64,000 nucleotides of DNA from Planosporangium flavigriseum (lineage in GTDB: Bacteria > Actinomycetota > Actinomycetes > Mycobacteriales > Micromonosporaceae): positions 62,001 to 126,000 of the forward strand of contig NZ_JAATVW010000017.1 in NCBI RefSeq assembly GCF_011947225.1, given 5' to 3'. Within the stretch, counting starts at the first letter, position 1. Every line of letters begins with the position of its first letter. Shown piece after piece: positions 19,007 through 51,995 of this stretch. The notes under the pieces were generated by a model that saw only the letters and a list, made by a program, of their open reading frames with translations, was not told the origin of the DNA and did no database searches. The translations under genes were made by a program, and so were the position numbers.

Positions 19007-19292
19007 GGTCACTTCCCCACCGGTGCGTACCAGCTTGCAGCGTGCCAGGGGCATGAAATGACAGAACTGATCTTTCGAACAGTCACGTGCTGAATGACCT
19101 CCGACCGCGCTGCGCCGAGCCTGCCCGCCAGCGCTAGCCGCCTGCCGTGCGTGGAGTAGCTCAGCAGAGGCGCACTGTCACCCGCAAGCGCTGACTGACA
19201 GGAGAGACGATAGGGCGAGCGAAAATCGGCTGATTGGTTTAGCCGTGACGGATGAACGGGGTACAATCGACCGGCGCCGCTACCGCTCAGGG

Positions 19293-20731: not shown

Positions 20732-23700
20732 ATGCTGACGTACGTTGCCCAGGTGACGGATCTTGCCCGTGGCGCCTACGAGCACCTCATCACGCGTGGA
20801 CTCGACGAGCAGCTGCTACCCGTCGCCCGCGACCTGGTGGACCGTCAGCGACTCGACCCGGCCGACGCCGAGGTCGTGCTGTCCCGTCACATCGCCGGGT
20901 TAGCTCACCGGGCGATGAAAGCCGTATCCGGCGAGGACAAGGAGCGGCTGGCCCGCCAGGTGGAGATCGCCAACCGGATCGCCGAGGCGATAGCCGACCT
21001 CTCCCCCGCAGCCGTCGAGCCGGCCGACTTCGTCACCGCGCCACCCGACCTGCTGCTGCGGGCGATCGTGGACCGTCCGGCAGCGCCGACCGATGTTGTG
21101 TTCCCCCCTCGCCCCGAGACCCCGCTGTCGAGCGGAGCGCTACTGGTCAACGGGCGCCGGCAGCCGCGCATCGGCCACGAGGTAGCAACGGAGATGGCCT
21201 CGGCCGACGAGGTCGATCTGCTGGTTGCATTCATCAAGTGGCACGGCCTTCGGCTGCTGGAACAGCCCATCCGGGACCTCATCGGGCGCGGCGGCAGACT
21301 CAGGGTCATCACGACGACGTACATGGGTGCCACCGACCAGCGGGCGCTGGACCGGCTCGCCGAACTGGGCGCCGAGATCCGGGTGTCGTACGAGACGAAA
21401 ACGACCCGGCTACACGCCAAGGCCTGGCTGTTTAGGCGAAAGACCGGCGCGAGTACCGCGTACGTCGGCTCATCGAACCTGTCGAAGTCTGCGCTCGTCG
21501 ACGGCCTCGAATGGAACGTACGGATCGCCGCGCTCGAACAGCCGCACATCCTCGATACGTTCGAGGCCACCTTCGACGAGTACTGGGACGATCCGGCGTT
21601 CGAGGAGTACATCCCGCAACGTGACGCCGGCCGGCTCCGTCAGGCGCTGCGCATCGAATCCGGCAGCGGCTCCCCTGAGCTGGCCATCGACATCACCAGC
21701 CTCGACGTGCGCCCGTACGGCTACCAGCGGGAGATCCTCGACGAGCTGGCCGCCGAGCGGGAAGTCCACGGCCACTGGCGCAACCTGGTGGTGATGGCGA
21801 CCGGCACCGGAAAGACCGTCGTCGCCGCGCTGGACTACAAGCGGCTGCGTGAGGCCGATGCCGTCGACTCGCTTTTGTTTGTGGCCCACCAGGAGCGCAT
21901 CCTGCAGCAGAGCCGCTCGGTGTTCCGCCACGTGCTGCGCGACGGGAGCTTCGGCGAGACGCTCGTGGGCGGCGAACGGCCGAGCCAGTGGCGGCACGTG
22001 TTCGCCTCCGTACAGTCCCTGCACCGGCTCGACCTCGATGAGCTCGACCCGGCCAGGTTCGACATGGTCATCGTCGACGAGTTCCACCACGCCCAGGCCC
22101 CGACGTACACCCGGCTGCTCAACCACCTGAAGCCACGCGTCCTGCTCGGGCTGACCGCAACCCCGGAGCGGGCCGACGGTCAGGACATCCGGGTCTGGTT
22201 CGACGGGCACACCTCGATCGAGCTGCGGCTGTGGGAGGCGCTTGAGCGGCAACTGCTGGCGCCGTTCCAGTACTTCGGCATCCACGACGACGTCGACCTG
22301 TCCGCGATCCGGTGGAAGCGCGGGCAAGGGTACGACCAGGGCGAGCTGAGCAATCTGTACACCGGCCACCACGCCCGAGCGAAGCTCATCCTGCAGGCGG
22401 TACACGACAAGGTCGACGTCAACCGGATGCGCGCCCTCGGGTTCTGCGTCAGCATCCAGCACGCCGAGTTCATGGCCGACTGGTTCCAGCGGGCCGGCGT
22501 ACCGGCGCTCGCGGTCACGTCCCGGCTCGACCTCGCCGGCCAGCGCGAGGCCGTGCAGAAGCTGATGAAGGGCGAAGTGCAGGCGCTCTTCACCGTCGAC
22601 CTGTTCAACGAGGGTGTCGACCTGCCGACGGTCGACACGATCCTGATGCTGCGGCCGACCGAGAGCGCGACCATCTTCCTGCAGCAGCTCGGCCGTGGGC
22701 TGCGGCTCGCCGACGACAAGCCGTGCCTGACCGTCCTGGACTTCATCGGCGGCCAGCACGCCGACTTCCGCTTCGACCTCCGGTACCGCGCGATCACCGG
22801 AATCAGCCGGCGTGAACTGGCTCGCGACGTCGAACGTGACTTCCCCACGCTGCCGGCCGGCTGCCACATCCAGCTGGACCCGGTCGCTAAGCAGGTCGTG
22901 CTGAAGAACGTGCAGGCGGCGCTGCGGCTACGGTGGCACGACGTTACCGCGGAGCTGCGCCGGCTCGGGGACGTCAGTCTCGGGGCGTTCCTCGCGGAGA
23001 CCGGGCTTGAGCTGGAGGATCTGTACCGCTCGAAGAGCCGCGGCGGATGGACCGGCCTGCGGCGCCTCGCAGGGCTCGATACCTCCTCGCCTGGGCCGGA
23101 CGACGCCGTGCTGAGTTCGGCGATCGGTCGGATGCTGCACCTCGACGACCTCCCGCGACTATCGCTTCTGTCTTCCTTGGCTGACGGCTCGCGGCCTTCG
23201 GCTGGGCGCTTGGCTGCCATGCTGCACGCGCTGCTGTGGGGCTCGGCGTGTTCGTTTGAGGAAGGCTTGGAGCGGCTGTGGGCCGTTCCTTCGCGCTGCG
23301 ATGAGTTGCGACAGGTGGCTTCGGTACTGCGGTCGCGGATCCACCGGGTCGGCCGGCCCGTCGACCTATCCGGCCGGATTCCGTTGACGCTGCACGCGCG
23401 CTACAGCCGTGACGAGGTACGCGCGGCCTTCGGGGTCGCCGAGCCGGTTCGTGAGGGCGTGAAGTGGGTCGAGGCCGAGCAGGCCGACCTCTTCTTCGTC
23501 ACGCTGAACAAGACCCTGGAGCACTACTCCCCCACCACCATGTACGAGGACCGGGCCATCACCCCGGAACTGTTCCAGTGGGAGTCACAGAGCACGACGT
23601 CCGCGGCGTCGCCGACCGGGCAGCGGTACGTGAAGCACGCGGCGCGGGGGTCGTCGGTGCACCTGTTCCTACGGGAGAGCAAGGACAGTGACGGCGCGCT

Positions 23701-23839
23701 CGGGGTGCCGCCGTATCTGTACGCAGGGCGGATGCGGTACGTGCAGCACAGCGGAGACCGGCCGATGCGGATCCTGTGGCGACTGGAGAAACCGTTGCCC
23801 GCGGATGTGTTTCATGCGGCGCGGGTCGCGGCGGGTTGA
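20732..23839 (+). CDS. PLD-nuclease / SF2 helicase / DUF3427 protein
   Basis: 1035 residues with three parts. A phospholipase D-type domain (about 130-290) contains one HxK motif in LHAKAWLF and the following GSSNLSKSAL. A superfamily 2 helicase core (about 325-690) has VMATGTGKTVVAA, VDEFHHAQ, GLTATPER, and the C-terminal VDLFNEGVDLP and QQLGRGLR. The rest matches the DUF3427-type tail (about 820-1035; LNKTLEHYSPTTMYEDRAI, HLFLRESK). This family is widespread in bacterial accessory regions and is suspected of acting on nucleic acids in defence, but its function is not established. The ATG at 20732 has no obvious ribosome binding site; GTG 20753 is the alternative. The gene is transcribed away from the helicase pair at 7-19 kb. 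Confidence 0.8.
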   Translation: MLTYVAQVTDLARGAYEHLITRGLDEQLLPVARDLVDRQRLDPADAEVVLSRHIAGLAHRAMKAVSGEDKERLARQVEIANRIAEAIADLSPAAVEPADFVTAPPDLLLRAIVDRPAAPTDVVFPPRPETPLSSGALLVNGRRQPRIGHEVATEMASADEVDLLVAFIKWHGLRLLEQPIRDLIGRGGRLRVITTTYMGATDQRALDRLAELGAEIRVSYETKTTRLHAKAWLFRRKTGASTAYVGSSNLSKSALVDGLEWNVRIAALEQPHILDTFEATFDEYWDDPAFEEYIPQRDAGRLRQALRIESGSGSPELAIDITSLDVRPYGYQREILDELAAEREVHGHWRNLVVMATGTGKTVVAALDYKRLREADAVDSLLFVAHQERILQQSRSVFRHVLRDGSFGETLVGGERPSQWRHVFASVQSLHRLDLDELDPARFDMVIVDEFHHAQAPTYTRLLNHLKPRVLLGLTATPERADGQDIRVWFDGHTSIELRLWEALERQLLAPFQYFGIHDDVDLSAIRWKRGQGYDQGELSNLYTGHHARAKLILQAVHDKVDVNRMRALGFCVSIQHAEFMADWFQRAGVPALAVTSRLDLAGQREAVQKLMKGEVQALFTVDLFNEGVDLPTVDTILMLRPTESATIFLQQLGRGLRLADDKPCLTVLDFIGGQHADFRFDLRYRAITGISRRELARDVERDFPTLPAGCHIQLDPVAKQVVLKNVQAALRLRWHDVTAELRRLGDVSLGAFLAETGLELEDLYRSKSRGGWTGLRRLAGLDTSSPGPDDAVLSSAIGRMLHLDDLPRLSLLSSLADGSRPSAGRLAAMLHALLWGSACSFEEGLERLWAVPSRCDELRQVASVLRSRIHRVGRPVDLSGRIPLTLHARYSRDEVRAAFGVAEPVREGVKWVEAEQADLFFVTLNKTLEHYSPTTMYEDRAITPELFQWESQSTTSAASPTGQRYVKHAARGSSVHLFLRESKDSDGALGVPPYLYAGRMRYVQHSGDRPMRILWRLEKPLPADVFHAARVAAG

Positions 23840-25716: not shown

Positions 25717-27128
25717 TCCACGGAGCGGAATCACCGGTTTCCGGTACGCCGTCGGTCCCGCGTGTACCGAGGTCAATGTACCTGCTCGGCGGTCGGAGAG
25801 TGATGGTTCGCGATCTGATCGAGGCAGGGCTTCTCTCGGCGGAAGCATCGTTACGATTCGACCGGCCCCGCGTTGGCGTCACCCACCGGGCGTTGGTCAC
25901 CGAGACTGGGCGGGTCCGGCTGGAGGACGGCCAGGAGTTCAGATCTCCTTCGCGCGCTGCCGCGGTGGCCGCCGGCATGCGTGCCGTGGACGGATGGCAT
26001 GCCTGGGTGGTCCAGTCCACCGGACGACCTCTCGATGCACTTCGGCAAGAACTTCTCGACCAGGCCGTCAAGCGAGCGGTCGACGACGCTCTCCGCATCG
26101 ATGACGAGGCCGCTCTCCCCCAACGAGTACACGAGCGCTTACGGGAGGCCCGCATGCGGGCGGATGCCAACGACCCGGAGGAGGTCTCCGTCCGCGAACT
26201 CCTGTCGCTGTGGGGGGCGAAGGGTCGGGGCGACCAGATCAGCGGAATCGAGGCGGACCTTGCCAATCACGGGCTCGTAACCCGGCCGAGCTTCCGCAAG
26301 GTAACGCTCGACTCGACGGTTCACCTGATCACGGCCTCACAGGAGGTACCCGAAGAGAACAACCAGGTCGCTGAGGTGGTGTCGGTGGACAGCGATGAGC
26401 CGGAGGAACTGAACGTAGGGCTCACGGTCGGCAACCTTCCATCGGCACTGGGTGGGGTTTTCTCGTTGTCACCAACCGCCACGTTCGAACAGGCGGTGAC
26501 GATGATGCTGCTCAACGACTACTCCCAGCTCGCGGTCCTGTCCGGAAGTCACACCCTGCGCGGCGCTGTGACCTGGAAGTCGATCGCGCAGGCCCGGCAC
26601 GCGAAGCCATCGGCGAGTTTCGGGGACGCCATCACCTTCGCACATGAGGTCCGGTACGACCGGGACCTGATTGACGTACTTCCGATCCTGGAAGCGTCGA
26701 ATTTCGTGTTCGTCCGCGACGAGAACAACGCGATCGCCGGCATCGTCACCACAGCCGACGTGGTGCACGCCTACGGGGAGATGGCAACGCCCTTTTTCCT
26801 GATCGGCGAACTCGACCAGTCACTCCGTTGGATCATCTCCCGGACGTTCGAGATCGACGACGTCATCCGCCTCTGTGACCCGAAGGGCTCGCGGAGAATT
26901 GAGTCCTTCGACCAGCTGACGATGGGCGACTACAAACGAGCCCTTGAAAACCCCGAGGCCTGGGCGAAGCTTGACTGGCCACTGGACCGCGCCACATTCA
27001 TCAACCGACTGGACGAAGTACGCGAGATCCGTAACGACGTTATGCATTTCAATCCGGACTCCTTGCCGAAGGACGCGGTCGACAAGCTCCGAAACATCAA
27101 TAAGTTACTCCGCGAGTACTGTGAATGA
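25710..27128 (+). CDS. RAMA-CBS-HEPN-like multidomain protein
   Basis: 472 residues from GTG 25710, overlapping the preceding gene by seven bases. Residues about 30-110 resemble a RAMA domain (VRDLIEAGLLSAEASLRF, LEDGQEFRSPSRAAAVAAG, GWHAW), a module thought to recognise modified DNA and found fused to restriction and methylase proteins. A helical region follows. Two CBS motifs occupy about 225-355 (FSLSPTATFEQAVTMMLLNDYSQLAV and VFVRDENNAIAGIVTTADVV), expected to bind an adenine nucleotide. The C-terminal 110 residues are helical and contain REIRNDVMHF (about residue 435), an R-x4-H motif as in HEPN ribonucleases. The combination suggests a sensor (RAMA), nucleotide switch (CBS) and RNase-like effector (HEPN). 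Catalytic activity is not proven. Confidence 0.7.
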   Translation: MVVHGAESPVSGTPSVPRVPRSMYLLGGRRVMVRDLIEAGLLSAEASLRFDRPRVGVTHRALVTETGRVRLEDGQEFRSPSRAAAVAAGMRAVDGWHAWVVQSTGRPLDALRQELLDQAVKRAVDDALRIDDEAALPQRVHERLREARMRADANDPEEVSVRELLSLWGAKGRGDQISGIEADLANHGLVTRPSFRKVTLDSTVHLITASQEVPEENNQVAEVVSVDSDEPEELNVGLTVGNLPSALGGVFSLSPTATFEQAVTMMLLNDYSQLAVLSGSHTLRGAVTWKSIAQARHAKPSASFGDAITFAHEVRYDRDLIDVLPILEASNFVFVRDENNAIAGIVTTADVVHAYGEMATPFFLIGELDQSLRWIISRTFEIDDVIRLCDPKGSRRIESFDQLTMGDYKRALENPEAWAKLDWPLDRATFINRLDEVREIRNDVMHFNPDSLPKDAVDKLRNINKLLREYCE

Positions 27129-31064: not shown

Positions 31065-32762
31065 GTGAACACGAAAGCAGGAGGAATGCGGCAGTTCATG
31101 CTTGATGGGACGATGGCGACATTAAGTGCCATCCCGGTGGAGGCCGTCGAGCACGGCGAGATCTTCACGCGTCGATGGGTTGTCGATCTGATCCTCGACC
31201 TCGCCGGCTACGACGAGGAGCGCGATCTCGCGTCGCTGGTCGCAGTTGAGCCAGCCTGTGGCACGGGAGCATTCCTGGAGCCGATGGTCGTCCGGCTCAG
31301 CGAATCGTTACGACGACACAACCGCACCCTTGATCAAGCCTCCGGCGCCATCCGCGCTTTCGATCTCTTGCCCCGGAACGTCGAGTCCAGCCGGCGCCTG
31401 GTGGAGAAGGTACTCATCCGCGACGGTTGGCCAGCCGAAGACGCAATAGCGCGCGCGGAGGACTGGGTGCAGGAGGGCGACTACCTCCTTGCTGACCACC
31501 AGGATGAAGGCGTCGACTTCGTGCTGGGTAACCCGCCTTACATCCGCCTAGAGGATGTCCCGACCGATCGCATGCTGGCGTACCGGGCGGCATGCTCCAC
31601 GATGACAGGGCGATCGGATGTGTACGTCGGGTTCTACGAAATCGGGCTCCGGTCACTTAAGCGTGACGGAGTGCTTGGCTTCATCTGCGCCGACCGTTGG
31701 ATGCGCAACCAGTACGGCCGGGAACTACGCAAATTCATCGCCGATAGCTTCAGCGTTGAGGCGACGATCATCATGCACGATGTGGACGCTTTTGAAGAGC
31801 AGGTGTCGGCGTACCCTGCGATCTCGATCCTGCGTCGTAGTCAACAAGGTGCCGCCGTCGTCGCTGATACGAGTGAATCATTCGGCCCGGATGATGCGGC
31901 GACCGTCTTGGCGTGGACCCGGGATGGCCAGTCCCATGCAATCAGGACCGACCGGTTCGAGATCGCGCGACTGCCCCACTGGTTCGATGGCTCCGATTCG
32001 TGGCCGGCCGGCTCACCGGCTCGTCTCGCTTTGATCGAGGAACTGAACGATCGATTCCCTCTTTTGGAGGACCAGACGACAGGCACGCGGGTCGGCATTG
32101 GCGTCGCTACAGGCGCCGACGGCGTCTTTGTGACCAAAGACGCCGACGTCGAGTCGGACCGCCTACTGCGACTATCGATGGTCCGCGACACGATTTCTGG
32201 CACGCTGACCTGGTCCGGGCGCTACTTGGTTAATCCCTGGGACGACCAGGGCAAGCTTGTTGACCTGGAGGCCTACCCGCTCCTGCGCGCTTATTACGAG
32301 CGGCATGCCGATGCGCTGAAGCGACGGCATGTTGCGGGCAGGCGACCGGCCCACTGGTATCGGACAATCGACAAGGTCGATAGTGCGCTGACTGCTCGTC
32401 CCAAGCTGCTGCTCCCCGACATGAAGCTCACCATTCATCCAGTCCTGGATGAAGATGGATTGTATCCGCACCACAACCTGTACTACATCGTCTCGGACGA
32501 CTGGGACCTGCGTGTGCTCGGCGGCCTTCTGATCTCCCGCGTGGCCCAGGCCTTCATCGAGGCTTATGCCGTCAAGATGCGCGGCGGCACCCTCCGCTTC
32601 CAAGCGCAGTATCTACGTCGTATCCGCGTACCCCGGCCCGAGACGATCTCGGATGCGGACCGTGCCATGCTCGCCGATGCTTTCGAGAAGAGAGACACTG
32701 TGGCCGCAACCGAGGTCGCCATGCGGGTTTACGGTATTGATTATGACTGGAACGAAAGCTGA
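31065..32762 (+). CDS. type II DNA adenine-N6 methyltransferase (PaeR7I/XhoI-type)
   Basis: A gamma-class adenine methyltransferase of up to 565 residues. The SAM-binding motif VEPACGTGAFLEP and the catalytic NPPYIR are both present, followed by a C-terminal target-recognition region (about 330-545, with YPHHNLYYIV and RGGTLRFQAQYLRRIRVP). The convergent neighbour is a PaeR7I-type endonuclease, so the predicted target is CTCGAG, with methylation of the adenine. The start is uncertain: GTG 31065 gives the longest form, while an AGGAGG at about 31080-31085 lies upstream of ATG 31098. The enzyme protects the chromosome from the paired nuclease. Confidence 0.85.
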   Translation: MNTKAGGMRQFMLDGTMATLSAIPVEAVEHGEIFTRRWVVDLILDLAGYDEERDLASLVAVEPACGTGAFLEPMVVRLSESLRRHNRTLDQASGAIRAFDLLPRNVESSRRLVEKVLIRDGWPAEDAIARAEDWVQEGDYLLADHQDEGVDFVLGNPPYIRLEDVPTDRMLAYRAACSTMTGRSDVYVGFYEIGLRSLKRDGVLGFICADRWMRNQYGRELRKFIADSFSVEATIIMHDVDAFEEQVSAYPAISILRRSQQGAAVVADTSESFGPDDAATVLAWTRDGQSHAIRTDRFEIARLPHWFDGSDSWPAGSPARLALIEELNDRFPLLEDQTTGTRVGIGVATGADGVFVTKDADVESDRLLRLSMVRDTISGTLTWSGRYLVNPWDDQGKLVDLEAYPLLRAYYERHADALKRRHVAGRRPAHWYRTIDKVDSALTARPKLLLPDMKLTIHPVLDEDGLYPHHNLYYIVSDDWDLRVLGGLLISRVAQAFIEAYAVKMRGGTLRFQAQYLRRIRVPRPETISDADRAMLADAFEKRDTVAATEVAMRVYGIDYDWNES

Positions 32763-41048: not shown

Positions 41049-41224
41049 CGGCAGACACTACGAGTTCCAGTGTTTTCCAGCAATCACCAGTTCAGATGAT
41101 GGCCACCACCCGCAGGGCTACATACAGTGACACTGCCGCTCAATTAGGGTGCCTCAATTAGCTTCCGCAAGGGATATTCAGCGCAATCGCAAGATCCCGA
41201 CATGGCTTCGCAGGAGGAGGGGTC
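41049..41224. promoter_or_regulatory. divergent promoter region with repeated CTCAATTAG
   Basis: The 176 bases separate two divergent operons. The 9-mer CTCAATTAG occurs twice (41139-41147 and 41153-41161), 14 bases apart, and stands out as AT-rich in GC-rich surroundings. It may be a regulator site or part of the promoters. An AGGAGGAGG box just before 41225 sets the start of the rightward operon. Confidence 0.5.
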
Positions 41225-44200
41225 TTGTCACGGGCGACAGAGACACTCGCGGAGCGGGAAGTGCTCTGGCAACCGCGCCTTCGAGCGGTGTCGCTCGTCT
41301 GCGAGCTCGACATCCCCGAAAACGAGGTACGGACAACCCTGTGGCACCTGGGCGAGCTGTACGCCAAGGTGTACGAGCGGGAACGGCACCTCCGGTTACT
41401 CAACCGGCTCTCCGCCTGCGTCGTGGTCGGGTTGGCGGGGATCGGCGCCGTCGAGTATCAACAGGGGGCGTTCTGGCCCGCTGTCAGCGACCAGATGGAC
41501 ATGCAGCTCAACAACGACGACAAGAAGCTGCTTGGGGAGGCGTTCCGACACGGGCTGGACCGGTTTGGGCTGGCGCGCTTCACGAACTTCAGCAGGATCA
41601 ATGTCGACGAGATCCTCATGCACTCCGGGATCCCCCTGTTCTGCCTCGGCGACTTCCTGAACGCCCTCCTGCGTCAGCAGGCATTGGACCCGGACGTACT
41701 GACCCCCGAAGAGTTCATGGAATGGGCGACCGGCCCCGGCCGGGAGTCTCGGCTCCACGCCCTCGACAAGCCGGTTCAGCGCCTACTCTGGCACGGCGGC
41801 GTCTATGTCGAAGACCTGGTCGACCGCTGTCTGGAGCTGGTCGACCGGCTGCGGGAGCCGGCGTTCGTCAACGACGGTCTGCAGCTGCCGGACAGCCTGG
41901 TGGCAAAGGCGCTCGACCTCGCCAAGTCGGGGTTGCTCAACCTCTCGTCGGCCCGGGAGACGGGTGCGGGGCTGGGGACCCGCCCCCGTCTTCTCCTGGA
42001 GCCGTACGGGCGGGGCCTGATGGCCTGGCTGCCCCCGATCCCGGACGCGCCCCTCGGCCAGGTGGAGTGGGACCTCGTCATCGGAGGGCAACCGCAGACG
42101 GTTCGGAGCCGCTCGGTTCTCCCGGCGGCGAGGGACACCGCACCGGCCGTCAGCGTGCCGCTCCCCCGGCCGGTCCGGGAAGTCGAGGTGGACCTGCGCG
42201 AATTCGACCTCAGCCTCGCGCTTCCGGTGGTCGACGCCGAGGACCCGCTCATGGTCTTCACGGACGAGGGCCGGCGGATCCCGGCGTCGGCCAGTTTGCC
42301 GCCGACCTCGGTGTGGCTGATGCACCCGCGAGGCGAGGATAGCGACGGCCCGGACCCGGTCGAGTTCAGTGGCTCACCCGTCCACGAGGACGAGCCCGCA
42401 GCTCCGTACGGATGGGCCGGCTGGCGGTTGCGACGGGTCAATCTCGCCGACGTGGCCCGGATCCGGCTCCGGGACAAGCCATGGCGAAACGTCGAAGGCG
42501 GTCGCCGCCCGCAGCTGGACTTGACGTCCCCGGTTCGGCACGTACGCAGCCGCCTAGACTCGCCGGTGTGGACCGAGGCGCCGAATCTGATTCTCCCGGC
42601 TGACCCGGGCACCACGACGGGCTGGACGATCCGCATCCGCCGGCCGGGCTCACCGCAGGCGCTGTCCGTCCAGGACATCGAGGTGTCCGAGGATACCCGG
42701 ATCGATCCGTGGCAGGGCGTGAAGCGCCCGCTTGTCGGCGCGTACGAAATCGCCGTCCGAGGACCGCTCGGCCGGGGTATCTCGCAGCGGTTCGAGTTCG
42801 CGGAGGGCTTCGCCGCGTCGTGGACGCCGGAGTGGCGCGAGCTGGGTTACGGCGGGCTTCAGGCGTGCAGCGTCGGCGCCACCGCCGCAGACCCGGAGCT
42901 GCACCTCAACCCGGCGGTCGTGCGACTGGCGCCCGAGCAGGCCAGCGCCGACTTCATCGTCGCCGCCCACGGCGAGGAGTACGCGCTCCGGGTGACCCCG
43001 CCCCATCTTGCGGTGCAGCACGGCGGCACGGGCGCCAGAGCTGAGTGGGCGCTACGCCCGCTCCGCCTCGACACCGAGGCCGTCGGCGAGGGCCACCTGA
43101 TGGTGTTGCTGCCGGGCAACGTCCGGGCCGACTTGGTCGTCTTCAACGGCGCGGAGCAGGCGCAGCGGATTCCCGCGAGCGGCGCGTCGAGGCCCGGAAC
43201 GGCCAGATTCGAACTGGCCCGCGTTGCTGAGACGGTACAGGCGCTCGGCACCGCGGAACTCAAGGTCGACCTACACGGCCTGCTGTTTCCTGTGGCGAAG
43301 TGCGTTCCGCGCAGCCTCGCCAAGGGGGTGCGGATCGACGACAGCGGCTGCCTCGTGGTGGCGGGCGCAACCGCGGCCGAAGGCTTGACGGCCGGGATCT
43401 ACCGGGGCCTCGCGCCATGGCAGGAGCCGTACGTGACGGCCGTACATGGCGACCTGCGCAGCTCGCCGTTGCCGGACTCCGTCACGGCGGCGGGAGACCT
43501 CGTCGTACACCTGCGGATCGATGATCCGTGGGTGCCACAGGACTGGCCGCGGTGGCCCGAGCCCACCAACACCTTCCTGATCCGAGACCGGCCGTGGCGA
43601 GCCACCGACGGCGGTGACAGCGATGAGGTGGCGCTGTCGCGGTACCTCGCCGGTGCCGGTCCCCTGCCGATGTCGTCCGGCGCCACCAGGCTGGCGTTCA
43701 ACCTGTACGACCGCGCCGACGACCTCAAGGCTCTCGGTGCGCACGGAGACCTGCGTGCCGTTGCCGCGAAGCTCATCACGGCGGAGCCCACCACCGCTTT
43801 GCAATCCATATTGGAGGGACGGCCGGCGCCGGCCACCACTGTGGCACCCCTCATCCACGCAGGGTTTGCGGCGCTCCCGCCGCGGCGCTACCTGACCGAC
43901 GATGACGAGGTCTCGCTGTGGGTTATCAATCCCCTGGCCGCGGTTCTTGCCTCCGCGCATCAGCTCGATGACATCATCGTCCGGTCGCCGCTGCACGAGC
44001 GGCTCCTCACGGTCTGCGGTGCGGAGCTCTTCGATCTGCTGCTGATCGGCGACCCGGATCCCCACGCCCGCATAGGTAGCTTCGACGCCAGCGCCGAGCT
44101 GCTCGCCCAGATGGACTCCGACAGCCTGGACGCGTTATGGGCCGCGACTCCGGTCGTACCCGGTGCTCTTCTCGACTGCGACGAGCGGATATCCGCCGCC

Positions 44201-44542
44201 CGTGAACTCTTCGACGCCCGTCTCCGGCCCGGAATTGTCAGTCTCGCGGCGGCGACCGAGCGGCACCTGCGGTTACTCGTACCGGTTATTGAGAACGCCG
44301 GAGGCGCCGAGCTCGCCCAGGCGGTCCGGGCCAGAGACCAGGGTCCCGGCTGGCGCTCGCTGCCCGCGCTGTCGATCGCGCTGTGCCTGGCATCGCGGCT
44401 CGCGGCCCGCGGATACGAGCACCTGGCGACCCTCATGCCACAGCTGACCGAAGCCCACGCGCGACTCGCGCGCCACTCGCCGCAGCTCACCACCATCGAC
44501 GTCGTACTCGCCGAACTCCTCGTGACGGGATCTCAACTATGA
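41225..44542 (+). CDS. DruH-like large protein of a Druantia III-type system
   Basis: 1105 residues from a TTG start, which is supported by AGGAGGAGGGG directly upstream. The N-terminal 240 residues are helical (LWQPRLRAVSLVCELDIPENEV, GLAGIGAVEYQQGAFWPAV, FLNALLRQQALDPDVL, LLWHGGVYVEDLVDRCLELVDRL). The middle is beta-rich with many short domains (about 250-850), and the end is helical again. I recognise no catalytic motif. Length, position directly before a DUF1998 helicase of DruE size and the four-base overlap with it match the Druantia type III pair DruH-DruE. The name is based on size and gene order, not on a sequence search. Confidence 0.55.
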   Translation: MSRATETLAEREVLWQPRLRAVSLVCELDIPENEVRTTLWHLGELYAKVYERERHLRLLNRLSACVVVGLAGIGAVEYQQGAFWPAVSDQMDMQLNNDDKKLLGEAFRHGLDRFGLARFTNFSRINVDEILMHSGIPLFCLGDFLNALLRQQALDPDVLTPEEFMEWATGPGRESRLHALDKPVQRLLWHGGVYVEDLVDRCLELVDRLREPAFVNDGLQLPDSLVAKALDLAKSGLLNLSSARETGAGLGTRPRLLLEPYGRGLMAWLPPIPDAPLGQVEWDLVIGGQPQTVRSRSVLPAARDTAPAVSVPLPRPVREVEVDLREFDLSLALPVVDAEDPLMVFTDEGRRIPASASLPPTSVWLMHPRGEDSDGPDPVEFSGSPVHEDEPAAPYGWAGWRLRRVNLADVARIRLRDKPWRNVEGGRRPQLDLTSPVRHVRSRLDSPVWTEAPNLILPADPGTTTGWTIRIRRPGSPQALSVQDIEVSEDTRIDPWQGVKRPLVGAYEIAVRGPLGRGISQRFEFAEGFAASWTPEWRELGYGGLQACSVGATAADPELHLNPAVVRLAPEQASADFIVAAHGEEYALRVTPPHLAVQHGGTGARAEWALRPLRLDTEAVGEGHLMVLLPGNVRADLVVFNGAEQAQRIPASGASRPGTARFELARVAETVQALGTAELKVDLHGLLFPVAKCVPRSLAKGVRIDDSGCLVVAGATAAEGLTAGIYRGLAPWQEPYVTAVHGDLRSSPLPDSVTAAGDLVVHLRIDDPWVPQDWPRWPEPTNTFLIRDRPWRATDGGDSDEVALSRYLAGAGPLPMSSGATRLAFNLYDRADDLKALGAHGDLRAVAAKLITAEPTTALQSILEGRPAPATTVAPLIHAGFAALPPRRYLTDDDEVSLWVINPLAAVLASAHQLDDIIVRSPLHERLLTVCGAELFDLLLIGDPDPHARIGSFDASAELLAQMDSDSLDALWAATPVVPGALLDCDERISAARELFDARLRPGIVSLAAATERHLRLLVPVIENAGGAELAQAVRARDQGPGWRSLPALSIALCLASRLAARGYEHLATLMPQLTEAHARLARHSPQLTTIDVVLAELLVTGSQL

Positions 44543-47500
44543 CCAAGCTGGATCCGATCGCGACGACGGAAGCCGTCGTCGACGCGTACCAGCGTTACCT
44601 GCACACCCTGCTCGAGCCGCGCGACCCCGCCCTAGCTGGGGCCTTGGAGGCCGCCATCGCCGGGGCGATCCGCGAAGGCATCACCAAGGGTCCGATCCTG
44701 GAGGCGACCCCGCCGTACGCGCAGGGCAGGTCGGCCCGGGAGCTGATCAACGAGGAGGTGCTCCACCCGGAGTTCGCGAGCCTGGTCGGAGGAATCCCGC
44801 TCGACCGGACGCTGTACGTCCACCAGGAGAAGGCCCTCCGTAAGGCGACCCAGGGGCGCAACCTTGTGGTGGCGACCGGCACCGGATCCGGCAAGACCGA
44901 GAGCTTCCTGCTCCCGATCCTCAACCACCTCGTGGCCGAACGAGCGGCGGGCACCCTCAAGCCAGGGGTGCGCGCGCTGCTGCTGTACCCGATGAACGCC
45001 CTGGCGAACGACCAGATGAAGCGGCTGAGGGTACTGCTGCGGGATTCGCCTGACATCACGTTCGGCCGCTACACCGGCGACACGAAGCAGACAGCGCGCG
45101 AGGCCGCCAGCGTCTTCGAGCTCCAGAACCCTGGAGAACCCCGGGTCAGCAACGAGCTGCTCAGCCGGGACGAAATGCGCGCGAACCCGCCGCATATCCT
45201 GCTAACCAACTACGCGATGCTGGAGTACCTACTCCTACGCCCGCTGGACATGCACCTGTTCGAAGGCGACCACGCCGGCAACTGGCGGTTCATCGTCGTG
45301 GATGAGGCGCACGTGTACGACGGCGCCCGCGGCGCGGAGCTCGCGATGCTGCTGCGCCGCCTGCGCGATCGCGTGGCTCGCGGCAGCACCATCCAGTGCA
45401 TCGCGACGAGCGCCACCGTCGGCGGCGACCCTGCCTCTGCCGCACAGTTCGCGTCGTCGTTGTTCAACGTCCCTTTCGAGTACGACGTAGCCGACGACTC
45501 CCACCAGGACGTGGTCAGTGCCACCAGAGTGGACCACCCGCGGGGCCGGGAATGGGGCCCGTTGCCGGCCAGCGCCTACCCACGGCTGCTCGACGCCGAC
45601 GATCCCGGATCCGAGATTCTAGCCCAGGCAGCCGCCCAGGGTTTCACAAGCACCGACCCCGGCGAAGCGCTCGCCCATGAGCAGCGGGTCATGCGGCTAC
45701 GCAGCCTCCTCGCCGGTGGGCCGGTACCGCTGCCCGAGGTCGCGCAGGCGCTGATGCTCGGCGACGAGCACGCCGTACCGCACACGGCCGCCCTCGTCGC
45801 ACTCGCCAACGCCACCGGCGACCGGACCGGGACGCCGGTGCTGTCCGCCCGCTACCACCTTTTCGCCCGGGCGACCGAAGGCGCGTTCAGTTGCCTGGGC
45901 GGCAACGGCCCCCACGTCAGCCTGACCCGACGCGAACGCTGCGAGCACTGCGGCGACGCCAGTTTCGAGTTCGGTAGCTGCCGTCGCTGCGGCACGGTCT
46001 ACCTGTCCGGTGCCCTCGAACGGGTCGGCGCGCAGGCCGTCTTCCGCTCCCGGCGTACCTTCGACGAGCGCCGCGTCTGGTTGGCCCTCGCCGACGTTCT
46101 CAGCCCCGGTGCCGACGAGGACGACATCACGCTCGACTCGCTGCGGGCGACCGCCGGCGAAGAGGGCGGGCTATGTGCGCGGTGCGGAACCTTCATCGTC
46201 GGACCGGCGGGCATCTGCCCGACGGAGGGCTGCGACGGCGGCGCGATGCGGCCCGTACGTTTCATCAAGGATGGCGCCGACGAGCTCACCTCGTGCCTTA
46301 CCTGCGGCGGCCAATCCTCGTCACTGGTCCGGCTGTTCCAGACCGGCAACGAGGCAGCCGTCTCTGTACTCGCTACCGCGCTCTACCAGCTGCTGCCGCC
46401 GGCGCCCGAGCCCGAGCAGGCCGAACGCCCGGGTGGCGGCCGAAAGCTGCTGCTGTTCAGCGACAGCCGCCAGGCCGCCGCCTACTTCGCGCCATACTTC
46501 GACCAGTCCTACGGTCGGCTGCAACGGCGCCGGCTGCTGTACCAGGGCATCCTCAACGGTCTCCGGGTCGACGAGGACGTCCGGCTTCCCGACGTGGTCA
46601 GCCATGCCGCCAGAGAGGCCCATCAGTTCGGTGTCTTCGAAGCACGCGACTCCAAGCAGGCACGGGAAAGGAAGGTGGCGCTCTGGGCGCAGCAGGAGAT
46701 CGTCGGCCTCGACGAGCGGCTCACCCTTGAAGGCTCGGGGCTCGTCCGGTGGAGCATGTGGCGCGATCCGGCCTGGCAGGCTCCGCCGCCCCTGGTTCAG
46801 CTCGGCTTCTCTCAGGACGAGGCGTGGAACCTGCTCAACGAACTTGTCCGGACCGTCCGAACCCAGGGCGCGGTCGCCCCGCTTGAGGGTGTGGACCCCC
46901 GCGACGAGGCGTTCGACCCACGACGCGGGCCCATCTACATCCGCGGCACTGGCGCGGAGGCCAAGCGGAAGGTACTCAGCTGGAGCCCCACGCGCGGCAT
47001 CAACCGGCGTCTCAACTACCTGACCCGGCTGCTGCAGCGGCTCGGGTCCACGGCCGATCCGTCCCAGCTCCTCGACGGCACTTGGCGGTTCCTGACTCAG
47101 GGACCGGCGAAGATATGGTTCCGCCCGACGACAGAAGCCAATCTCGGCGTGGTCTTCCAGCTGGAGTCGGAGCTGCTCACCTGCGAGTCGGCCGACGAGG
47201 TCCCGGTGTGGCAGTGCACGGTCTGCCGGAAGCTGGTTCCATTCAGCGTGCGCGACGTCTGCCCCACGATGAACTGCACCGGTGCCCTTGTGCCGTGGTC
47301 GCTGCCGGACAGGACATCCGATACCGACCACTACCGGGCGATCTACCGCTCGATGAAACCGATTCCCCTCGCCGTGCGGGAACACACCGCGCAGTGGACC
47401 GGTGAGAAGGCGGCCGAGATCCAGCAGCAGTTCGTCCGGGGTGAGGTCAACGCGCTGTCATGTTCGACGACGTTCGAACTCGGCGTCGACGTTGGCGAGC

Positions 47501-49488
47501 TCCAGGCCGTCGTACTCAGGAACGTCCCGCCGACCACGGCCAACTACGTGCAGCGCGCTGGCCGCGCCGGCCGTCGCACCGACTCCGCCGCCCTCGTGGC
47601 CACTTACGCGCAGCGCAGATCGCACGACCTGTCGCGGTTCGCCGAGCCTCGCCAGATGATCGCGGGCCAGGTCCGCGCGCCGTACATTCCAGCCGGCAAC
47701 GTCCGGATCGACCGCCGGCACGCGCACTCGGTGGCCCTCGCCGCGTTCTTCCGCCACCAGTACCGCACCTTCGGAACGGAGTGGCGCCAGGTCGGTGCAT
47801 TCTTCCTGCCGTCGGACGGCGACCCCGCGCCGGTCACCGCGATCGCCGAATACCTGCGGCCGGTACCCGACGCCGTGACCGAGTCCCTCGTCAACGTTCT
47901 CCCGCCGGCCGTCCAGCAGGAGATCGGCCTCGACTCCGGTGCCTGGGTGGATCATCTCGTGGAGCTGCTCGACACCGTCCGCCTCGAGGTGGAGCACGAC
48001 TACAAGATCTACGCCGACAAACTCGACGAGGCCGCGGCTGCGCGGAAGTTCAACCAGGCGTCGATGTTCGAACGGCTGATCAACACCATCACCCGTCGTG
48101 ACCTGCTGGGTTTCCTCGGCAATCGCAACGTCCTACCCAAGTACGGATTTCCGGTTGACACGGTCGAGCTGAAGCTTTCGTATGCGGACCCCGAGGAAGC
48201 CAGCAAGCTCGAGCTCTCCCGCAACCTGACCACCGCGATCTACGAGTACGCTCCCGGCGCCGAAATCGTCGCCGGAGGCCGCCTGTGGCGGTCAGGCGGC
48301 ATCTACCGCCTGCCGGAACGCGAACCCGAGCGCCGGTACTACGCGCCGTGCACCAGCTGCAACTACTACCGTGAGAGCTTTGACCGACTCGACGACCCGT
48401 GCCCGTCATGCGGTACGGCGCCCACCGGGAGCGCGCGCCGCTACACGGTTCCGCTGTTCGGCTTTGTCGCCAGCAGAGAGCAGTCGCGTCAACCCGGCGG
48501 CCGGCCGCCGAAGCGCTCGTGGCACGGCGATACCTACGTCGTATCGCGCGGCGCGGAGGTCAAGGAGATCGTCCAGGGGCTGCCGGGTGGAAGGGTCAGC
48601 GCGCGCAGCGGCACCCGAGGCGAACTCGTCGCGGTCAGCGACGGCCCGGGCGGCAAGGGCTTTCTGATCTGCAACTGGTGCGGCTACGGCCAGCCGCAGA
48701 TCGAACGCCCGCCGCGCAGCCATGACAACCCCGTCAACGGCAAGGCGTGCGGCGGCAGGCTTGAGAACCTGTCACTTGCCCACAAGTACCAGACGGACGT
48801 GCTTGAGCTCGCGATCGAAGGTACCGCTGTTCTCGGCCTCGATACCCAGGTCTGGCTGTCGGTGCTGTACGCGCTCGTCCAAGGCGCCAGCGAAGAGCTC
48901 GAGATCTCCCGCGACGACATCGACGGCACCGTCTTCATTACGGACGCCGGCCGGACGGCACTGATGCTCTTCGACACCGTCCCAGGCGGAGCGGGACACG
49001 TTCGTAAGATCGCCGAGAATCTGCCAGAGGTCCTCGCACGCGCGTTCAACACGGTCGCGGACTGCGAATGCGGTCCCGAGACCAGCTGCTACCGGTGCCT
49101 GCGGGTATTCCGTAACGAGAAGTACCACGAGCGGCTCCGCCGAGGCGCCGCCGCCGACGTTCTGGGACGGCTGATCGGGAAGCAGACAACAGCCACTAGC
49201 GGCATACGCCGGCTGAGCATGGACCAGCTGGTCCATGCCGATCAGCTGACGACGCGATTCCTGGTCAACGAGGCGCCCGGCGAGGTGTTCGAGCCCGTTG
49301 CCAACAGCCACCTCGACCTTTACGAGGGCCGGATAGTCGCCGCGTCCTGCGATGGCTCCATCGGGGTAGGACGGCTCTGGCTGCGATACGACGAGGCCGG
49401 CATCGCCGAAGCGGGCATCCATCCGATGTGCGGAAGCTCCCTCCAGGGCCCGCCCGATACCATCCGAGTCACGGCGGTTGCCATATGA
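44539..49488 (+). CDS. DruE-like DEAD/DEAH helicase with DUF1998 (MZB) domain
   Basis: 1649 residues from ATG 44539, which overlaps the upstream stop by four bases. A superfamily 2 helicase core begins at VATGTGSGKTESFLLP (about 112-127), with VVDEAHVYDG (about 253) and the C-terminal motif QRAGRAGRR (about 1003). Between them lies an insertion with zinc-type cysteines (CEHCGDASFEFGSCRRCG, CARCG). The C terminus carries a DUF1998/MZB domain (about 1415-1530) with its four-Cys cluster CECGPETSCYRC, as in MrfA, DrmA, DpdJ and DruE. Size and partner favour DruE. MrfA-type proteins translocate on single-stranded DNA, so a DNA-scanning role in defence is likely. Confidence 0.75.
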   Translation: MTKLDPIATTEAVVDAYQRYLHTLLEPRDPALAGALEAAIAGAIREGITKGPILEATPPYAQGRSARELINEEVLHPEFASLVGGIPLDRTLYVHQEKALRKATQGRNLVVATGTGSGKTESFLLPILNHLVAERAAGTLKPGVRALLLYPMNALANDQMKRLRVLLRDSPDITFGRYTGDTKQTAREAASVFELQNPGEPRVSNELLSRDEMRANPPHILLTNYAMLEYLLLRPLDMHLFEGDHAGNWRFIVVDEAHVYDGARGAELAMLLRRLRDRVARGSTIQCIATSATVGGDPASAAQFASSLFNVPFEYDVADDSHQDVVSATRVDHPRGREWGPLPASAYPRLLDADDPGSEILAQAAAQGFTSTDPGEALAHEQRVMRLRSLLAGGPVPLPEVAQALMLGDEHAVPHTAALVALANATGDRTGTPVLSARYHLFARATEGAFSCLGGNGPHVSLTRRERCEHCGDASFEFGSCRRCGTVYLSGALERVGAQAVFRSRRTFDERRVWLALADVLSPGADEDDITLDSLRATAGEEGGLCARCGTFIVGPAGICPTEGCDGGAMRPVRFIKDGADELTSCLTCGGQSSSLVRLFQTGNEAAVSVLATALYQLLPPAPEPEQAERPGGGRKLLLFSDSRQAAAYFAPYFDQSYGRLQRRRLLYQGILNGLRVDEDVRLPDVVSHAAREAHQFGVFEARDSKQARERKVALWAQQEIVGLDERLTLEGSGLVRWSMWRDPAWQAPPPLVQLGFSQDEAWNLLNELVRTVRTQGAVAPLEGVDPRDEAFDPRRGPIYIRGTGAEAKRKVLSWSPTRGINRRLNYLTRLLQRLGSTADPSQLLDGTWRFLTQGPAKIWFRPTTEANLGVVFQLESELLTCESADEVPVWQCTVCRKLVPFSVRDVCPTMNCTGALVPWSLPDRTSDTDHYRAIYRSMKPIPLAVREHTAQWTGEKAAEIQQQFVRGEVNALSCSTTFELGVDVGELQAVVLRNVPPTTANYVQRAGRAGRRTDSAALVATYAQRRSHDLSRFAEPRQMIAGQVRAPYIPAGNVRIDRRHAHSVALAAFFRHQYRTFGTEWRQVGAFFLPSDGDPAPVTAIAEYLRPVPDAVTESLVNVLPPAVQQEIGLDSGAWVDHLVELLDTVRLEVEHDYKIYADKLDEAAAARKFNQASMFERLINTITRRDLLGFLGNRNVLPKYGFPVDTVELKLSYADPEEASKLELSRNLTTAIYEYAPGAEIVAGGRLWRSGGIYRLPEREPERRYYAPCTSCNYYRESFDRLDDPCPSCGTAPTGSARRYTVPLFGFVASREQSRQPGGRPPKRSWHGDTYVVSRGAEVKEIVQGLPGGRVSARSGTRGELVAVSDGPGGKGFLICNWCGYGQPQIERPPRSHDNPVNGKACGGRLENLSLAHKYQTDVLELAIEGTAVLGLDTQVWLSVLYALVQGASEELEISRDDIDGTVFITDAGRTALMLFDTVPGGAGHVRKIAENLPEVLARAFNTVADCECGPETSCYRCLRVFRNEKYHERLRRGAAADVLGRLIGKQTTATSGIRRLSMDQLVHADQLTTRFLVNEAPGEVFEPVANSHLDLYEGRIVAASCDGSIGVGRLWLRYDEAGIAEAGIHPMCGSSLQGPPDTIRVTAVAI

Positions 49489-50378
49489 ATGAGCGTGCGG
49501 TACTGGACCGGCTGGCGTCACTGCGCCAGAACCAGTACCAGGGCCGGCGCGCGCCACACAAACCGCCGCTCGTCCTGCTGGCGCTTGGTCGCCTCGCCAA
49601 CAAGGGGTCGAGCGAGCTGTCCTGGTCGGAGGCTGAATCACAGCTTGCCAAGTTGATTGCCGAGTTCGGTCCGGAGTCGAAGACGGGAGGGGCGCAGAGC
49701 GCCGCGTACCCGTTCACCCGCCGGCGAAGCGACGGTGTCTGGACCCTGAGCCGGGACGTACCGATGGACCTGGTGCGCCCGCTAGCCGCCGATGACGTCG
49801 TGGGCCGGCTCGAAGTATCGCTGGAGACGGCGCTACACCGGGATCCGCAACTACTCCGGTCGGCCGCCCGCGCCCTGGTGGACAGCCATTTCCCGGCTAC
49901 GGTCGCACCGGACGTACTCGTCGCGGTCGGCCTGGATCCCGACGACGTCCTGCAGGTCGAGGTCCAGCCCACCACCGCCCCGCGGCGCCGTGACCCGGCC
50001 TGGCGGGCCGCCGTCCTTCAGGCCTGGGACCGCCAGTGCGCCTTCTGCGGCTACGACGGGCAGCTGGGGTTCGCGTCGGTCGGCGTGGAAGCCGCCCACA
50101 TCCGCTGGTTCGCCTTCGACGGTCCCGACAGCCTGGACAACGGGCTGGCGCTGTGCGTGCTGCACCACAAGCTGTTCGACCTGGGCGCGCTGGGACTCGA
50201 CTCCTCGCTACGCATCAACGTGTCCACCGTGTTCACGGCACGGACGAGAGCCGGGCGGGCACTTTACGACCTGCACGGCCAGGAGCTGAAGCCGCGGCCA
50301 GGTAAGGCTGTGCCTGCTGACGGACATGTCTCCTGGCATCGGCGCGAGGTTTTCAAGGGCAAGCCGCTGGCCGCTTGA
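49485..50378 (+). CDS. SBD-HNH endonuclease (phosphorothioate-DNA McrA type)
   Basis: 297 residues, ATG overlapping the helicase stop by four bases. The N-terminal domain (1-130) resembles the sulfur-binding domain of SprMcrA/ScoMcrA-type enzymes: LASLRQNQYQGRRAPHKPPLVLLALGRL, LIAEFGPES and AAYPFTRRRSDGVW, where a Tyr-Pro pair lines the sulfur pocket in characterised members. The C-terminal HNH domain has CAFCGYDGQ, VEAAHIRWF and NGLALCVLHHKLFDLG. Related enzymes bind phosphorothioate-modified DNA and cut it nearby, acting as type IV restriction. No dnd or ssp genes are present here, so the sulfur-modified target would be foreign. Coupling to a DruE-like helicase is unusual. Confidence 0.8.
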   Translation: MNERAVLDRLASLRQNQYQGRRAPHKPPLVLLALGRLANKGSSELSWSEAESQLAKLIAEFGPESKTGGAQSAAYPFTRRRSDGVWTLSRDVPMDLVRPLAADDVVGRLEVSLETALHRDPQLLRSAARALVDSHFPATVAPDVLVAVGLDPDDVLQVEVQPTTAPRRRDPAWRAAVLQAWDRQCAFCGYDGQLGFASVGVEAAHIRWFAFDGPDSLDNGLALCVLHHKLFDLGALGLDSSLRINVSTVFTARTRAGRALYDLHGQELKPRPGKAVPADGHVSWHRREVFKGKPLAA

Positions 50379-50387
50379 AGGGAGAGG

Positions 50388-51995
50388 CTATCCCCGGTGG
50401 CCCTGTTCTGGGATTGAGCTCTTGGTAGGACCGGTGCTCGCGTTCCTGGGCCGTTTGATACCGATCAGGACGTCCTTGCCAAGGTGTTCCTTGATGAGGT
50501 GCACCAGGCGATTGCCGTCAACAAGTTCGATCCGACCGTGGTCCCGTGCCTTCTGCCACCCGCCTGAGGTGAACCACGATGTCGTGACGAGGATGCCGTG
50601 GCCGGCCTTCTTCTCCTCCATCGCGCCGGCGAGCTCACGGATGTGGCTGACTCCCACAACGTCCTTGTAGCGCTTGGCCTGCACGATCGTCAGCCCACCG
50701 ACGAAGGGCGTCGGGTTGAACACCACCCCGTCCACTCCGTCGTCCTTGCTCGGCACGGTGGTCCAGCCTTGCATGCCCATTGCCTCGAAGATCTGGCGCA
50801 CGAGATGTTCGAATTCGGTTGCGCTCATCGCCATCAGGTCGGGCCGGGAGTCGAGCGTCGCGACCGCATCCATCCCTTCCACGAACGAGTACTTGGTGCG
50901 GTCGAAGTCCAGGATCGGGGTAATCGCTTCCAACGCGTACGGATGCTGGGATACCAGGGCATTGAGGTGGCGCAGGCACACCTCCGGCCGCACCTGATCG
51001 AGTACCAGCCGTTCGAACGCCTCACGATCGACGCTCAAGCTAATCAAGCATGGGTATACGCGCTGGCCGGTAGCCGGGTCAGTGGTGTCTACATGCCCGT
51101 TGAACGCGACCTCCTGCAGCGCCGGGTCTGCGTCGAAGAGATCCCGTACAACGAGAAGAGCTACCTGGGCGACGAGCGAGCGATAGAGGTCACCAGCCTC
51201 CTTTGACGGGCGAGGCACGGCCTTGATCTCATCGCGGGACTGGACGTAGGTGTAGCCGCGAACGGTAGGAACGACATCCCGGCCGGGCAGTTGTAGCCGC
51301 ACCACGGCCTGCTCGGCCTGTGGACTGAAGACGACTTCTGATTGATGTGGAAAATCCGGCGGCATCGGCACCCGCCGCAACACGTGCTGTAGGTAGCCCT
51401 CGACTGCCGCCTTATCCCGAGACTGAAGTCCCTTCGCCATGCGATCGACGCGCTCGTTGTGCTCGTCTGTCTCGCGCTGCTTCTTGGCCAGGATCGCCTC
51501 GTTGTGACGCCTGTGTTCGGCCAATTGTTCAAGGCGACACTGTTCGGCCTGCTCCCAGTCACGCCGGGCATGCTCGAACTGGTCCCGCGCCTGGCCCAGC
51601 CGCTGCTCGTACCGCGCTTGCCCACCGAGCAGGGCCCCGAGGGCGCCAGGTCGGGCCGGCTCGAACTCTTCCCAGTTCGGTGCCGGTATTGGCGAACCTA
51701 ACGGGCCTGGAGAGAATGGCGGCTGCTTCGGAGCTCGCTTGAGCGAACCGAAATCGATCCGTGCCGGTCGTCGCAGACCCGCCTGAAGGACGCTCTCAAG
51801 TTCTCGCACCCGATTATGGAGCTGCCTGGTGCGCTCCTCTGTTTCAGCCTCGCGGCTGGCCAGGTACTCCGCGCGCTGCTGCCGCTGCGCCGCTTTGAGT
51901 GCTGCCGCCTCGGCTCGCTGCTGTCGTAACGCCTCGCGCGCCTGCGCTTGCTGCCAGCGCTGCCAATCGCCAGCGCTTGGCGACCGTCGCGCCAT
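50388..51995 (-). CDS. Mrr-type restriction endonuclease with long coiled-coil N terminus
   Basis: 535 residues from ATG 51995 (GGGGGAG just upstream). The first 200 residues are Gln/Arg/Glu-rich and mostly coiled coil (RWQQAQAREALRQQRAEAAALK and later EQAEQCRLEQLAEHRRHNEAILAKKQRETDEHN). The C-terminal 110 residues are an Mrr-like PD-(D/E)XK domain: FEHLVRQIFEAMGMQGW, SKDDGVDGVVF (Asp), TIVQAKRY (Gln-x-Lys variant of the site) and ILVTTSWFT. Mrr enzymes cut modified DNA. It converges on the SBD-HNH gene with nine bases between them. The long coiled coil suggests multimerisation or a sensor arm. Confidence 0.8.
   Translation of the reverse strand: MARRSPSAGDWQRWQQAQAREALRQQRAEAAALKAAQRQQRAEYLASREAETEERTRQLHNRVRELESVLQAGLRRPARIDFGSLKRAPKQPPFSPGPLGSPIPAPNWEEFEPARPGALGALLGGQARYEQRLGQARDQFEHARRDWEQAEQCRLEQLAEHRRHNEAILAKKQRETDEHNERVDRMAKGLQSRDKAAVEGYLQHVLRRVPMPPDFPHQSEVVFSPQAEQAVVRLQLPGRDVVPTVRGYTYVQSRDEIKAVPRPSKEAGDLYRSLVAQVALLVVRDLFDADPALQEVAFNGHVDTTDPATGQRVYPCLISLSVDREAFERLVLDQVRPEVCLRHLNALVSQHPYALEAITPILDFDRTKYSFVEGMDAVATLDSRPDLMAMSATEFEHLVRQIFEAMGMQGWTTVPSKDDGVDGVVFNPTPFVGGLTIVQAKRYKDVVGVSHIRELAGAMEEKKAGHGILVTTSWFTSGGWQKARDHGRIELVDGNRLVHLIKEHLGKDVLIGIKRPRNASTGPTKSSIPEQGHRG

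Follow-up and report, generated by a model that had tools for sequence, protein, structure and literature searches.

Results

A three-gene operon in a restriction island

Three genes of Planosporangium flavigriseum lie head to tail on the forward strand of the window, by which we mean the whole 64,000-nucleotide stretch of DNA that was analyzed. The contig that contains the window is 130 kb long and comes from a 5.7-Mb genome that is 99% complete, and relatives were recovered at the family level (Micromonosporaceae). The first gene, P0001 (41225..44542, +), encodes a putative divergent DruH-like protein of 1105 amino acids with predicted helical ends and a tandem Ig-like core. Its start codon is TTG, with gcaggaggagggg directly 5' as a good ribosome-binding sequence, and a Shine-Dalgarno-like stretch ahead of the start was read from the sequence as gcaggaggaggggtc (41208..41224, +). 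P0002 (44539..49488, +) encodes a predicted DruE-type YprA/DUF1998 SF2 helicase of 1649 amino acids, and P0003 (49485..50378, +) a 297-amino acid SBD-HNH protein, a predicted phosphorothioate-dependent restriction endonuclease (NF045808). An ATGA overlap joins the stop of P0001 to the start of P0002 (44539..44542, +), and a second joins the stop of P0002 to the start of P0003 (49485..49488, +). The original prediction for this DNA had described three genes with two 4-base ATGA overlaps, and the reading frames and both junctions were found as it described them. The GC3 of the three genes is 0.83-0.85, which is typical of the window, and we regard all three as real genes because each has homologues with open frames.

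The operon has restriction enzymes as neighbors. A gene for an Mrr-type Type IV restriction enzyme (50388..51995, -) is convergent to P0003, and a SauUSI-like PLD-SF2-DUF3427 Type IV enzyme is encoded at 20732..23839 (+). Both match the PADLOC mREase_IV class, the latter with 901 bits; modification-dependent restriction enzymes are thus clustered in this island. The ends of the three-gene segment show no direct or inverted repeats of nine bases or more. Elsewhere in the window, two overlapping giant helicase genes (7270-19054, -) encode a 1739-amino acid protein that combines DinG-like with DpdF/RecQ-like helicase modules and, after it, a 2190-amino acid SNF2 helicase; our scan found no named system there. 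A polymorphic-toxin-like gene (5506-6720, -) combines a WXG100-like N-terminus with a CdiA_C domain, a single protein with RAMA, CBS and DUF4357 domains is encoded 3' of a ParA-like ATPase gene (25710-27128, +), and an Eco57I/TaqI-like adenine methylase is encoded at 31065-32762 (+; PADLOC MTase_II, 637 bits).

A DruE-type helicase

P0002 carries DEAD (PF00270), Helicase_C (PF00271) and MZB/DUF1998 (PF09369, MrfA zinc-binding) domains and matches the PADLOC DruE1 and DruE3 models with E-values of 3e-180 and 9e-179, in agreement with its earlier designation as a DruE-like DUF1998 helicase. Its C-terminus extends about 130 amino acids past the MZB domain. A Pfam scan found no PLD or Vsr nuclease domain in the protein, and there is no HKD motif after the DUF1998 region. 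Its PDB relatives are 9tu7 and 9wae; the best, 9tu7, is a 2108-amino acid DEAD/DEAH helicase from the same entry series as the DruH structure 9tud. In a tree of DruE proteins, P0002 clusters with other nuclease-less actinobacterial members. Judged from its domains, P0002 is a DruE-type helicase predicted to lack the C-terminal nuclease of Druantia III-A.

The first gene and DruH

P0001 matched no family among the PADLOC, Pfam and NCBIfam models. None of 18 members of its family matched a PADLOC DruH model, while the control, E. coli DruH, matched 11 PADLOC models. The similarity to DruH emerges at the level of profiles. When a 38-sequence profile of the P0001 family was compared by hhalign with one of seven proteobacterial DruH proteins, the score was 55.1 (probability 66, E 5.7e-5), with a collinear, end-to-end alignment of positions 6-1138 with 1-1118; the maximum among 60 block-shuffled controls was 31.0. 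A profile of 18 P0001 relatives scored 49.3 against the DruH profile, with a maximum of 26.0 in 60 block shuffles. The link depends on a proper profile, since other alignment settings (-M first) gave scores of 24-29, close to the highest shuffle score (24.2). An eight-row P0001 alignment gave no signal against the single E. coli DruH sequence, and a signal was obtained only with two profiles.

The AlphaFold2 model of P0001 (mean pLDDT 83, pTM 0.53) consists of helices at 2-234, tandem beta-sandwiches at about 255-765 and helices at 799-1104. By cryo-EM, the N- and C-terminal regions of DruH are helical and flank three Ig-like domains at 257-748 (PMC13192584), so the predicted layout agrees. 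A Foldseek search of the PDB with the model returned generic macroglobulin-like tandem-Ig arrays (best Z 8.0), which give no family evidence; 9tud is absent from the fold matches listed and may postdate the library. Matching of P0001 by residue number to the mutated positions of the Mycolicibacterium smegmatis DruH gave at most 6 of 11, equal to shuffles. No relative of P0001 or of DruH was found on viral contigs, and none of P0001 on plasmids.

These profile and model comparisons suggest that P0001 is probably a remote, divergent homologue of DruH, the profile match not amounting to proof. P0001 might instead be an unrelated tandem-Ig protein that became a partner of DruE independently, a view that could be combined with any account of the third gene. 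The failure of the PADLOC DruH models across the family, the empty comparison with the single E. coli sequence and the generic character of the Foldseek matches all speak for it; we consider it unlikely, given collinear profile scores of 49-55 against shuffle maxima of 26-31 and a length, gene order and domain layout that are all as in DruH (PMC13192584). The DruH-like label of the original prediction, which counted a lack of similarity of the 1105-residue protein to DruH as half of its refutation, is borne out by the remote profile match and the layout, and not by curated models: of the profile searches it proposed, those for DruE and SBD-HNH gave matches and those with DruH models gave none for P0001. 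In Actinomycetota, the family would form a large clade of probable DruH proteins that escape the PADLOC 2.0.0 models, and many Druantia III-like systems in this phylum are probably unannotated.

An SBD-HNH restriction enzyme

P0003 scores 263 bits against the NCBIfam model NF045808 (PT-DNA_restrict; curated cutoff 180 bits), which confirms the SBD-HNH identity first assigned to it. It keeps H25 and K26 (HK) and Y75 and P76 (YP), motifs that serve sulfur recognition (PMC7461809), as well as the HNH residues H205, N219 and H228. In SprMcrA, the sulfur pocket is formed by Y31, Q32, Y78, P79 and A82 (PMC7470945). On these grounds, P0003 is a phosphorothioate-dependent SBD-HNH restriction enzyme for which cleavage is predicted. 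The only PAPS-reductase-family genes of the host are CysH and CysD, and no DndC/SspD, that is, no phosphorothioate-modification genes, were found in the host, so P0003 would spare its own DNA. An Ssp- or Dnd-linked role was considered and rejected because the host lacks these modification genes. SBD-HNH genes act alone and are seldom found with dnd (PMC7461809). Among SBD-HNH proteins that adjoin other helicases, two (L022, 9968-10816; L025, 8001-8855) have N or D in place of the sulfur-pocket Tyr (FNPW, SDPF) and may not read phosphorothioate; the Tyr is likewise missing from a stand-alone E. coli member.

Distribution of the gene pair

The P0001-P0002-type pair was found at about 27 other loci, in Actinomycetota (Micromonospora, other Micromonosporaceae, Streptosporangium, Thermobifida, Nocardiopsis, Mycolicibacterium, Rhodococcus, Propionibacteriaceae MAGs and one actinobacterial MAG) and in one Chloroflexota (Anaerolineae) MAG. 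A Nocardia contig holds a relative of the first gene, with the second cut by the contig end. At none of these roughly 27 loci is an SBD-HNH gene coupled to the pair, which gives no support to the proposal of a restriction enzyme absorbed into the helicase system. Only the Streptosporangium locus has an SBD-HNH gene in its fetched flank; it lies 6 kb upstream and shares 40% identity with P0003. In Mycobacterium, the first-gene family occurs in 18 of 297 genomes, with DruE starting at the stop of the first gene, mostly in a 4-base overlap; this count covers the first gene and the start of DruE. The genes 3' of DruE vary by locus, and near relatives alone have a neighbor in common. No counterpart of P0002 was found in three congeners, and one genome (G565) carries both a DruH-DruE pair and a P0003 orthologue, on different contigs. 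A survey of the three-gene order, as originally proposed, turned up no other genome with an HNH gene in the position of P0003 among the genomes searched, one per species, a sampling that may miss strains with this order.

Several pair loci have features of their own. An AAA ATPase gene and ZacA- and ZacB-matching genes directly follow the pair at one locus (L012, 12434-17456; genome G258). A conserved protein of about 390 amino acids, of no known family and with TADDVANVEKDLARHPK near its start, is encoded 3' of DruE at three loci of one genus (L015, 4098-5258, -; L016, 12543-13736, +; L017, 12472-13647, +). A Pro-Glu repeat region replaces the N-terminal helical part of one homologue of the first gene (L018, 4087-7002). 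In Streptosporangium carneum (L036, 13407-17942), three genes lie between the first gene and DruE, one with an Hsp70-like start (TTGIDFGTTNS). In another genome (G426; L019, L020), the first gene is broken into pieces about 0.4 Mb apart on one chromosome, and DruE adjoins the C-terminal piece.

Relatives and partners of P0003

The closest relatives of P0003 are 61-82% identical, and all lie at places other than behind DruE. The tree places P0003 in a clade of six (support 99/98), together with proteins whose genes are coupled with a SauUSI-like helicase gene or lie close to one. The P0003 relatives at L082, L083 and L084, from three Micromonosporaceae, follow a PLD-SF2-DUF3427 gene in ATGA coupling; its product has the same domain architecture as SauUSI, a Type IV enzyme (PMC3874153). 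The SauUSI-like gene at 20732-23839 of the window, 26 kb from the three-gene operon, is the orthologue of these partners; its product is 66% identical in amino acids to that of L083, and the gene is 89% identical in nucleotides to that of the congener G447. In G447, 2.3 kb separates the SauUSI-like helicase gene from the P0003 orthologue, both on the same strand. No P0003 remnant was found behind the SauUSI-like gene of the window. The idea of a Druantia variant with a built-in nuclease found no backing in these comparisons, as the nearest kin of P0003 are stand-alone or coupled to a PLD-helicase of an unrelated Type IV kind.

At the syntenic place, G447 has about 187 bp of unrelated DNA instead of 41100..50427 of the window, a segment that contains exactly P0001-P0003. 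We rejected this apparently empty site as proof of an insertion because the adjacent Mrr gene of G447 is cut down to its last 74 codons; as that genome has also lost most of Mrr, insertion here and deletion there are indistinguishable. The region as a whole is much rearranged relative to G447. Most simply, the sequences suggest that the DruE-P0003 junction arose when P0003 exchanged one helicase partner for another inside a single island. A move from the SauUSI-like operon to the DruE operon is uncertain, since its direction is inferred and the G447 site is damaged.

None of 20 other actinobacterial SBD-HNH loci fetched with flanks is coupled to a recognized helicase; at one (L127), the gene is in ATGA overlap with a 380-amino acid ORF. 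Most other SBD-HNH genes are coupled to nothing. SBD-HNH genes have joined helicase operons on at least three further occasions. On a Euzebya pacifica plasmid, genes for a PglX/IIG-like methylase (1363 amino acids), a PLD-SNF2 helicase (1130 amino acids) and an SBD-HNH protein are linked by two ATGA overlaps, and on an Azospirillum plasmid the SBD-HNH gene lies 28 bp 3' of a strawberry-notch helicase gene.

Discussion

We propose, with a probability of about 0.6, that the operon unites a DruH-DruE system of the III-B kind, its DruE without a nuclease domain, with a separately evolved SBD-HNH Type IV enzyme, recently joined to it by an ATGA junction. Pair and enzyme normally stand apart in relatives, so P0003 is better seen as a recent add-on than as an established third part. 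This reading draws on the roughly 27 pair loci that lack the SBD-HNH gene, on the clade mates of P0003 that couple to a SauUSI-like helicase whose orthologue sits in the window, on the genome in which pair and P0003 orthologue coexist on different contigs, and on the two further Type IV enzymes of the island. A complete two-gene system is also favored because a pair with proteins of almost equal size protects M. smegmatis on its own (PMC13316683). By analogy with characterized systems, DruH would detect a phage component and license DruE, which would load on 3'-tailed replication DNA. P0003 would share its mRNA with DruE and be produced in step with it, and alone would cut incoming phosphorothioated DNA, the enzyme and the pair acting side by side.

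Two observations count against such independence. ATGA coupling to a nuclease-less DruE would be equally expected of an effector subunit, and SBD-HNH genes have met helicase operons at least three more times, which a purely independent enzyme would not require. P0003 could accordingly be a true effector subunit: translated in step with DruE, it would provide the missing nuclease while DruE moves along phage DNA or unwinds it, and its SBD would serve as a general DNA reader or as a sensor of sulfur-modified phage DNA. P0002 lacks a nuclease domain, as most often does the III-like branch according to Bell et al. (PMC12458937), and SBD-HNH genes also lie 3' of SauUSI-like, Euzebya PLD-SNF2 and, at 28 bp, Azospirillum strawberry-notch helicase genes. 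Two of these helicase partners have PLD nucleases of their own, however, so the partners are not united by the lack of a nuclease; moreover, no other pair locus carries an SBD-HNH gene, the M. smegmatis pair is reported to be protective without a third gene (PMC13316683) and E. coli DruH itself nicks DNA (PMC13192584). We consider an effector role improbable for these reasons. In a broader version, which we hold to be doubtful, SBD-HNH proteins would be exchangeable nuclease modules, one of which has here switched helicase and now forms the cutting arm of a nuclease-less Druantia. Attachment by ATGA to the last gene of DruE, SauUSI-like and PLD-SNF2-plus-methylase operons, and at 28 bp to strawberry-notch, would fit such exchange. 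The junction may also be an accident: rearrangement within a busy island of Type IV restriction enzymes would have left P0003 behind DruE, and the coupling would provide a promoter and nothing else. The heavy rearrangement relative to G447 and the occurrence of the join in one genome only would suit an accident, and high-GC actinobacterial operons often have 4-base overlaps. The same ATGA style recurs with other helicases, however, and the frame and start of P0003 are intact, and an accident appears quite unlikely.

Within one bacterial family, the same restriction enzyme occurs by itself or coupled to either of two helicases, which offers a natural experiment in how defence operons gain nucleases.

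Comparison with known systems

P0003 shares domain order, size and the HK/YP and HNH residues with the NF045808 enzymes SprMcrA and EcoWI; these are stand-alone, whereas the P0003 gene is translationally coupled to a helicase gene. The SauUSI-type enzyme (PLDc-SF2-DUF3427) represents a helicase class other than DruE and lies outside the three-gene operon. Auxiliary nucleases of the wHTH(SBD)- or SRA-HNH type have been noted in BREX and Dnd systems (PMC12839542, PMC10853773), and our literature search found no report of one for Druantia.

Druantia III-A of E. coli likewise has DruH followed by DruE with overlapping ends, a YprA helicase and a first protein of about 1100 amino acids with helical ends and an Ig-like core, as in the P0001 model. 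The type III system has no third gene, and the likeness of P0001 to DruH is at profile level only. E. coli DruE (L021) is a 2104-amino acid protein with C-terminal PLD domains (PMC13192584), while P0002 has 1649 amino acids and none. The original prediction credits the two-gene type with no nuclease, which is not true of E. coli: there DruE has a C-terminal PLD nuclease and DruH nicks DNA (PMC12458937, PMC13192584). Bell et al. describe a distinct Druantia III-like (III-B) YprA branch that most often has no nuclease domain, and the nuclease-less P0002 fits this branch by description; the text searched mentions neither an SBD-HNH partner nor a divergent DruH clade (PMC12458937).

A close counterpart in layout is the DruH-DruE pair of M. 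smegmatis (MSMEG_1253/1254), whose overlapping genes encode 1132 and 1667 amino acids, similar to P0001 and P0002, and whose DruE ends at DUF1998 with no canonical nuclease, like P0002. That system consists of two genes only, with no third, and protects on its own, a minor tail protein being the activator (PMC13316683). Likened by its published description, the M. smegmatis DruH likely belongs to the same DruH clade as P0001.
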